NCBI GenBank assembly: GCA_005889075.1
Contig: VBDQ01000029.1
Span: 1 to 34,519 of the forward strand
Origin: Chloroflexota bacterium
GTDB taxonomy: Bacteria > Chloroflexota > Limnocylindria > P2-11E
Reading direction: 5' to 3'
Length of the DNA stretch: 34,519 nucleotides
Both the position numbers and the translations under genes were made by a program. This document shows positions 3,123 through 6,345 of the stretch, one piece after another (within the stretch, counting starts at the first letter, position 1; each line of letters opens with the position of its first letter). The notes beneath the pieces are model-generated. The model was given only the letters and a program-made list of their open reading frames with translations, did no database searches and was not told the DNA's origin.

Positions 3123-3153
3123 GAATGGCCACTCGTTTCACTCGTGGCCATTC
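3123..3153 (+). promoter_or_regulatory. Intercistronic 10-bp hairpin directly after the rplW stop
   Basis: GAATGGCCAC (3123-3132) is perfectly complementary to GTGGCCATTC (3144-3153), with an 11-base loop. The hairpin starts on the base after the rplW TAA. No T-run follows, so it is not a standard intrinsic terminator. It could be an RNA-processing, attenuation or protein-binding site. The base pairing is seen directly; the role is inferred. Confidence 0.6.
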
Positions 3154-3159
3154 ATACGT

Positions 3160-3179
3160 GCACCTCCTTGCGGAGCTGC
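3160..3179 (+). promoter_or_regulatory. Hairpin that encloses the rplB ribosome-binding site
   Basis: GCACCTCC (3160-3167) pairs with GGAGCTGC (3172-3179) around a TTGC loop, with one C-C mismatch. The right arm contains GGAG, which lies eight bases before the rplB ATG and is the only evident Shine-Dalgarno sequence. The left arm contains CACCTCCTT, the same string as the usual 3' end of 16S rRNA. The hairpin would hide the rplB start until it is opened by ribosomes, a protein or an RNA change. The regulatory role is inferred. Confidence 0.55.
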
Positions 3180-3183
3180 TGTA

Positions 3184-4023
3184 ATGCCGCTGAAGCAGTA
3201 CAAAGCGACATCGCCGGTTCGGCGCTTCCGGCAGTCGGCCTCGTTCGAGGAGCTGACCCGCGGCAAGCGGCGCGAGCGCGGGCTCAGCGAGCGGAAGGTG
3301 CGCCACGCCGGACGCAATGCGCAGGGCCGCGTGACCACGCGGCACCGCGGCGGAGGCGAGAAGCGCTCGTACCGGCTCGTCGACTTCAAGCGGAACAAAG
3401 ACGGGATCCCGGCACGCGTGGTGGCGATCGAGTACGACCCCAATCGCTCGGCGCGCCTGGCCCTCGTGGTGTATCGCGACGGCGAGAAGCGCTACATCAT
3501 CGCGCCGAACGACCTGCGTGTTGGCGACACCGTGCTCTCCGGAGCCGATGCGGAGGCGCGCGTCGGCAACAATCTGCCGCTCGAGCACATCCCGACCGGC
3601 ACGCAGATCCACGGCATCGAATTGCAGCCGGGACGCGGCGCCCAGCTCGTTCGCGCAGCGGGGACATCGGCGCAGCTCGTCGCGAAAGAGGGCCAGTACG
3701 CACAGATCCGCCTGCCGTCGGGCGGGATCCGCGTCGTCCACGTGCGCTGCCGCGCGACCGTCGGACAGATCGGCAACGTCGAGCACGAGAACCGCAAGGT
3801 CGGCGGCGCGGGCCACAAACGTCACATGGGCTGGCGTCCAGCGGTCCGTGGCGTGGTCATGTCGCCGCGCGACCACCCGCACGGCGGCGGTGAGGCGAAA
3901 TCGCCGGTGGGCGGCATGGCGCAGACGCCCTGGGGCAAGCCGGCCATGGGACTCAAGACACGCAAGAACCCGCGGACGGATCGCTTCGTGACGGAGCGGC
4001 CGAGGAAGAGGAAGTCCAAATGA
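3184..4023 (+). CDS. rplB: 50S ribosomal protein L2
   Basis: L2 is a core 50S protein needed for subunit association and peptidyl transferase activity. The product has 279 residues, the normal length. It begins [15 protein letters not shown] and contains [18 protein letters not shown], the OB/SH3-like RNA-binding domains and the C-terminal signature DHPHGGGE with its conserved His. I chose ATG 3184; the track start at 3025 lies inside rplW, and typical L2 proteins begin at this motif. A GGAG element lies eight bases upstream, inside a hairpin (see 3160-3179). The stop overlaps the rpsS start as ATGA. Confidence 0.97.
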
Positions 4024-4386: not shown

Positions 4387-4725
4387 GTGGAAGTGAAGGC
4401 GAGCGCCCGCTTCCAACGGCTCTCGCCGCGGAAAGCGCGGCTCGTGACAGACCTGATCACCGGCAAGAGCGCCGAGGAGGCGATCGCCATCCTCGAGCAT
4501 CTCCCGAAGGCGACCGCGCTGCCGCTCGGTCGGGTGGTCCGCTCGGCGATCGCGAACGCCGAAAATAACTTCAACCTCACGCTCGAGAACCTTTACGTGA
4601 AGCGCGCGATCGCCAACGAGGGGCCGCGTATGAAGCGCGCGTGGTTCCGGGGCCGCGGTCGCCGCGATCTCAAGCTCCATCGCCTCGCGCATCTCGAAGT
4701 CGTCTTGGACAGCAAGGAGAGCTAG
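4387..4725 (+). CDS. rplV: 50S ribosomal protein L22
   Basis: L22 lines the exit tunnel with L4 and binds several 23S rRNA domains. The 112-residue product from GTG 4387 reads [20 protein letters not shown], matching the family start (MEVKA.AR...SPRKARLV), and ends near [18 protein letters not shown]. The ORF track carries the frame back to 4177, inside rpsS, in a different frame from S19. GTG 4378 and GTG 4393 are also possible starts; I preferred 4387 by family alignment. The stop overlaps the rpsC GTG as TAGTG. Confidence 0.93.
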
Positions 4726-5237
4726 TGGGACAGAAGACGCACCCTGTCGGTTTCCGCCTCGGGGCGAAGCCCGGCGTGGTCATCGGCAAGGGCGGGGCGA
4801 AGGTCGAGGAGCTGCGCCAGGTACTCGGGAAGATGACCGCCAAGAACGTGAAGGTGAACATCTTCGAGATCCGCTACCCAGAGCTCGATGCCAATCTCAT
4901 CGCCGAGAACGTCGCTCAGCAGCTCGAGCGGCGGGTCAGCTTTCGGAAGGTCCTGAAGCAGACGGTGCAGCGATCGATGAAGGCCGGCGCGCGCGGCGTC
5001 CGGGTCGCGGTCGCCGGCCGTCTCGGTGGCGCCGAGATGAGCCGGCGTGAATGGGAGCGCGAGGGCCGCGTTCCCCTGCACACCCTGCGCGCGGACATCG
5101 AGTTCGGGCGCGCGATCGCGAAGACAACCTTCGGAACGATCGGCGTGAAGGCGTGGGTCTACAAGGGCGACGTGGAGCCTACGCCGCGTCAGGTCACCCA
5201 GCCCTCGACGCCCGCGCAGCGGGCGGCAGCAATCTGA
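4725..5237 (+). CDS. rpsC: 30S ribosomal protein S3 lacking most of its N-terminal domain
   Basis: S3 lies at the mRNA entry site and contributes to mRNA unwinding. This product is 170 residues; the family is usually 210-230. It opens with the canonical [13 protein letters not shown] and then jumps straight to [17 protein letters not shown], which in E. coli begins near residue 71. About 57 residues are missing: the N-terminal helices and the first strands of the type II KH domain. The GxxG loop (GKGG), the second domain ([23 protein letters not shown]) and the basic helicase-region residues (FRKVLK) remain. The frame is intact at the join, near bases 4761-4772, and the missing part is not in another frame. 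This could be a real deletion or an assembly error. Junctions are TAGTG upstream and TGATG downstream. Confidence 0.93.
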
Positions 5238-5680
5238 TGCTGCAACCGAAGCGGCTCAAGCACCGCAAGTTCCAGCGCGGGCGCATGAAGGGCGCGGCGC
5301 AGTCGGGGAACAAAATCACCAAGGGGGACTACGCCCTGCAGGCGCAGGAGCCCTGCTGGATGACCGCGCGCCAGATCGAGGCCGCGCGCCGCGCAGTGAC
5401 GCACCACTTCAAGCGAGGCGGCAAGGTCTGGATCAACGTCTTCCCCGACAAGCCGGTCACCAAGAAGCCGGCCGAAGTTCGAATGGGCTCGGGCAAGGGC
5501 GCACCGGACCATTGGGTCGCGGTCGTCAGGCCGGGCCGCGTGATCCTCGAAGTGGGCGGCGTCGACCGCGCGCTCGCGAAGGAAGCGCTGCGGCTGGCGG
5601 CCCACAAGCTCCCGATCAGGACGCGATTCATGGCGAGAGAGGAGGCGGTGGCGGATGAAGGACATGCGGCGGCTGTCTGA
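5237..5680 (+). CDS. rplP: 50S ribosomal protein L16
   Basis: L16 is a late-assembly 50S protein near the A-site tRNA elbow. The 147-residue product from ATG 5237 starts [19 protein letters not shown], as expected, and contains [20 protein letters not shown] and the segment [10 protein letters not shown]. The frame extends back to 5051 in the track, but that part overlaps rpsC; the start at TGATG fits the family. The gene overlaps rpmC by 26 bases. The final ~10 residues ([10 protein letters not shown]) are a short variable tail. Confidence 0.96.
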
Positions 5681-5768
5681 CCAGGAGCTCGCGGATCAGC
5701 TGCGCTCGGCGGAGGAAGAGCTGATGGACGCGAAGTTCAAGCTCGCCACGCGCCAGCTCAAGAACTAA
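5655..5768 (+). CDS. rpmC: 50S ribosomal protein L29, truncated to 37 residues
   Basis: This gene is too short for the ORF track. From ATG 5655 it reads [16 protein letters not shown] and then [12 protein letters not shown] before TAA 5766. This matches the first helix and the LATGQL-like turn of L29. L29 is usually 60-70 residues, a two-helix hairpin at the tunnel exit next to L23. Here the second helix (the family's R.I...IARI.T segment) is absent in all frames downstream. The gene lies in its normal place between rplP and rpsQ and overlaps rplP by 26 bases. It may be a natural short form, a truncation, or a sign of a local sequence error that also affected the rpsQ start. Confidence 0.8.
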
Positions 5769-5862
5769 GACCGAGAAGAAGACGCCGGCGAGGGCCGGTC
5801 GCGCCACGAAGGCGCCGCCGAAGGTCGCCGCGCGCGCGATCAAGGCCCCGGCCAAGGCCGCA

Positions 5863-6345
5863 GTGGCGGCTCGACCGATCGGACGGCGCACGGTGGCAAG
5901 GAAGCGCACCGCCGTTCCTGCCGCGGGCGCGCCCGAGGCCTTCACCTGGCGACGGCTGCGACGCAAGACCAAGGTCGGCGTGGTGGTCTCGGCGAAGATG
6001 GCGAAGACCGTCATCGTCGAGGTCGGCCGGCTTCGCGAGCACCCTCTGTACAAGAAGGTGATCCGCACCCGCAAGCGCTTCGCCGCGCACGACGCGAACG
6101 CCGAGGCGAAAGCCGGAGACCTCATCCGCATCCAGGAGAGCCGCCCGTTCAGCGCGACGAAGCGTTGGCGGGTGGTCGAAGTGATCTCGCGGGCGGGCGA
6201 GGCAGGCGCAGCTGCGCCGCGCGTGGCCGACGTCGAGAAGATGCTCGAGGCCGCGGAAGGCTCGGGCGAGCTCCTCGTGCGCGAGCGTGAGGAGCCGTTG
6301 GGGGGCGCTGCCCCCCAAGCCCCCGAGGAGCCCGAAGAGAAGTGA
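5863..6345 (+). CDS. rpsQ: 30S ribosomal protein S17 with N- and C-terminal extensions
   Basis: S17 is a primary 16S-rRNA-binding protein of OB fold. The core starts at about residue 37 ([18 protein letters not shown]) and includes [18 protein letters not shown] and [18 protein letters not shown]. The usual length is ~85; this form is 160. The start is uncertain. GTG 5863 is the first standard start codon, but the frame is open back to 5725 and encodes a Lys/Ala/Pro tract ([15 protein letters not shown]...) like the L4 tail. The sequence TAAGACCGAG at the rpmC stop would give TAATG ACC GAG if one T were added. The C-terminus includes a GC palindrome shared with truA. The stop overlaps rplN (GTGA). 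Confidence 0.9.
6298..6324 (+). repeat. GC palindrome, copy 1 (3' end of rpsQ)
   Basis: TTGGGGGGC and GCCCCCCAA form a perfect 9-bp stem with a GCT loop, followed by GCCCCC. The core TGGGGGGCGCTGCCCCCCAA is identical to copy 2 in truA at 17380, and after one variable base both continue with CCCCC. In both genes it is read in the same frame, as LGGAAPQ(A/T)P, close to the C-terminus. Confidence 0.85.

Follow-up and report, generated by a model that had tools for sequence, protein, structure and literature searches.

Local errors in metagenome assemblies have a defining test, read support, and IDBA-UD in particular is suspected of producing them readily (Chen et al. 2020, PMC7111523). The locus described here, judged from assembled sequence, resembles such errors in that it carries a short, sharp and private loss without obvious repeats at its edges, and in that several such losses fall in one draft and break essential genes. 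The other described system that bears on it is the ordinary bacterial ribosomal protein uS3. The S3 encoded in our window (a whole contig of 34,519 nucleotides from a Chloroflexota draft genome) is ordinary in its position between rplV and rplP, its N-terminal tail, its KH-domain loop and its full C-terminal domain, but as assembled it is without 57 residues (14-70), which relatives keep. We conclude that this short S3 very probably results from a local assembly error in a genome put together from short metagenomic reads, a reading to which we give a probability of about 0.96 on the strength of sequence comparison.

The draft (G000) measures 2.83 Mb in 144 contigs and is 87% complete. Colinear counterparts of the window contig exist in ten genomes of the same genus and in other family members, and the order of the S10-operon genes around rpsC (rplV, rpsC, rplP) is ordinary. 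Over rpsC we aligned 17 relatives, 10 of them in the same genus, and comparisons were made segment by segment in pairwise and multiple alignments. Sharp private losses were scanned for across the 34.5-kb region in the draft and its relatives, leaving aside the large gaps of G018, which are an effect of trimming where its alignable sequence ends. The features of the window are collected in the table.

Table. Features around the two joins in the window (positions in the 34,519-nucleotide stretch).
Feature	Coordinates	Strand	Description
rpsC (S3) frame	4725..5237	+	GTG start at 4725, stop ending at 5237; 170 aa as assembled; normal residues 1-13 and 71 onward
Blunt join in rpsC	4762..4763	+	171 bp missing, equal to 57 codons (residues 14-70 of the normal protein); present in 16/17 relatives
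rpmC (L29) region	5656..5770	+	Shortened frame of 37 codons, matching positions 1-36 of the 57 in Pfam L29; C-terminal half absent
Second sharp join	5766..5767	+	About 90 bp missing (84-114 in relatives): end of rpmC and start codon of rpsQ
rpsQ (S17)	5863..6345	+	Core domain intact; the second join has removed the start region that relatives use (ATG/GTG-GCTGAGAAG)

The initial annotation had described an S3 missing some 57 residues of its N-terminal domain, in frame, and this description is borne out. Residues 13 and 71 are joined in frame, and the extra segment of the relatives is exactly 171 bp long, follows window base 4762 and encodes FTKTWNAKWY...NQVTVTIQT. The one exception among the 17 relatives, G005, keeps the first part of this segment and then has a frameshifting gap of its own (95 bp). 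Another genus member, G006, has about 75 scaffold Ns beginning some 60 bp downstream of the join site. In fact, 3 of the 11 assemblies of the genus are broken close together in rpsC. By its match range L071 had seemed a candidate for a relative with the same short S3, and it proved intact.

What remains of the protein is in good order, as had been claimed. The C-terminal domain (PF00189) is full in a profile match (positions 1-83 of 83, E 1.2e-31), while the N-terminal KH domain (KH_2, PF07650) covers only positions 34-78 of 78, against 2-78 in the S3 of a genus relative; an intact relative's S3 also aligns with solved S3 chains over residues 1-218. Against the relatives (G006 excluded for its Ns), the remaining S3 has a dN of 0.03-0.09 and a dS of 0.54-0.89, giving a dN/dS of about 0.04-0.17, and only 2 of 138 residues carry private substitutions. 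These figures indicate strong purifying selection and no compensatory change, and they show neither decay of the protein nor its adaptation to having half a domain missing. The initial annotation had also held that the missing part is not present in other frames, and in the rest of the draft no copy was found of the missing residues or of the matching DNA of the relatives. It had further proposed a search for a second rpsC; a Ribosomal_S3_C profile search of the whole draft gave a single match, that of the short gene itself.

The rpsC join does not stand alone. About 1 kb downstream on the same contig, a second loss, absent from the initial annotation, removes a segment whose length varies among relatives and that spans the boundary of rpmC and rpsQ. 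The rplW-rplB spacer (window 3123-3185) is about 46-62 bp longer in the window contig than in relatives.

A different locus on another contig of the draft, rpoC (L160, on G000:C67), was chosen as a further test. Here exactly 127 bp are missing at 1334/1335, a segment present in 6/6 aligned relatives. The loss shifts the frame and takes away an invariant, highly conserved segment that belongs to the core of RNA polymerase. The open frame in the draft runs for 567 codons from the contig edge and then stops, as compared to about 1,300-1,440 codons in relatives. Neither another copy of rpoC nor the lost core segment was found elsewhere in the draft. A cell with this broken rpoC as its only copy could not live, and joins of this kind in the draft thus cannot be trusted at face value.

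Similar losses are found in the sibling drafts, at other sites. Private sharp losses occur in rplB (105 bp in G004, 120 bp in G010), rplE (104 bp in G005, in addition to its 95 bp in rpsC), rplF (73 bp in G010) and secY (88 bp in G002), and in other genes of G010 (93 and 90 bp) and G003 (104 bp), besides less clear cases; the loci concerned are L032 and L142 (G004), L033 and L145 (G010), L159 (G005), L151 (G002) and L148 (G003). Among the 11 sharpest losses, counting those of the siblings, the 171 bp of S3 and the 127 bp of rpoC, the frame is kept in 5 and lost in 6. This proportion is compatible with the one-in-three expectation for in-frame losses, and thus the frame is not being protected. 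Outside the genus, sharp losses of 234 bp (G013) and 69 bp (G016) are both in frame and may be natural.

Where could such losses come from? The loci of all ten genus-mates trace to Chloroflexi MAGs bearing the CF_ labels and sample names of the Angelo grassland soil study (BioProject PRJNA449266), which used IDBA-UD (k 30-200) and reported its scaffolding errors as corrected (PMC6784897), and our draft is likely to be one more of these IDBA-UD assemblies. An earlier paper that used this assembler describes how reads near zero-coverage joins were collected and locally reassembled (PMC5079060). We propose that the contigs on the two sides of a short stretch of rpsC that had failed to assemble were fused end to end with no Ns between them, which would have removed 171 real bases from the record; the exact assembler step is one that we infer. 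The same blunt joining would have occurred at rpmC/rpsQ and in rpoC. Two other routes to the losses were considered and rejected. For repeat-mediated loss, no direct repeat was obvious by eye at either edge of the joins in the relatives' sequences. The idea that the assembly broke where relatives living together have long identical sequence in common is not supported either, as the identical runs at the deletion sites (20-113 bp) do not exceed the background in length (median 65 bp).

Should the short S3 nevertheless be taken as a product of evolution? An in-frame deletion fixed in the lineage would give a viable S3 without residues 14-70, the first half of the KH domain, and it has in its favor that the frame is kept, that the rest of rpsC is conserved and that the draft holds no second rpsC. 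The kept frame is also a point that speaks against an assembly error, as a loss of arbitrary length keeps the frame with a chance of 1 in 3. Yet this deletion is common to no relative, it would leave a KH domain minus its first 33 profile positions with no sign of compensating substitutions, and it would have to coexist with the equally sharp losses at rpmC/rpsQ and in the frameshifted rpoC, which cannot all be tolerated. We consider it highly improbable. Equally improbable is a deletion that is real but confined to a minor variant, or to dead or relic DNA of the population, and that was taken up by the assembler. Soil drafts mix strains, and rare broken variants are compatible with the data, but several unrelated broken genes (rpsC, rpmC/rpsQ and rpoC) would then have entered one consensus, and the same pattern recurs in the siblings at other sites.

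We therefore favor an assembly error, because the rpsC loss is absent from the relatives and because the same draft carries like losses, one of which would be lethal if real. Two marks of local assembly errors are seen: the rpsC join is private to one assembly and absent in relatives, and like losses occur in the same assembly with no regard for the frame (rpmC/rpsQ, and the 127-bp frameshift of rpoC). The initial annotation had thought a viable deletion remarkable, its chief alternative being an error in the assembly; it is this alternative that gains support, and the viable deletion loses it to the frameshifted sole rpoC of the same draft. Bases restored by a relative's genome had been named as what would speak against the deletion, and the alignment of rpsC from relatives restores 171 of them at the join.

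The short S3 is thus very probably not a real biological feature: it stands in the record, whereas the organism itself in all likelihood has an ordinary S3 of about 226 residues. In fact, publicly deposited drafts of this genus show sharp losses, about 70-170 bp long, in essential genes present as single copies, among them markers used in phylogeny such as S3, L2, L5, L6 and rpoC. When such assembly losses fall in frame, they mimic the genuine shortening of a protein. A loss seen in a single draft should be compared with relatives and set beside any frameshifting losses elsewhere in that draft.
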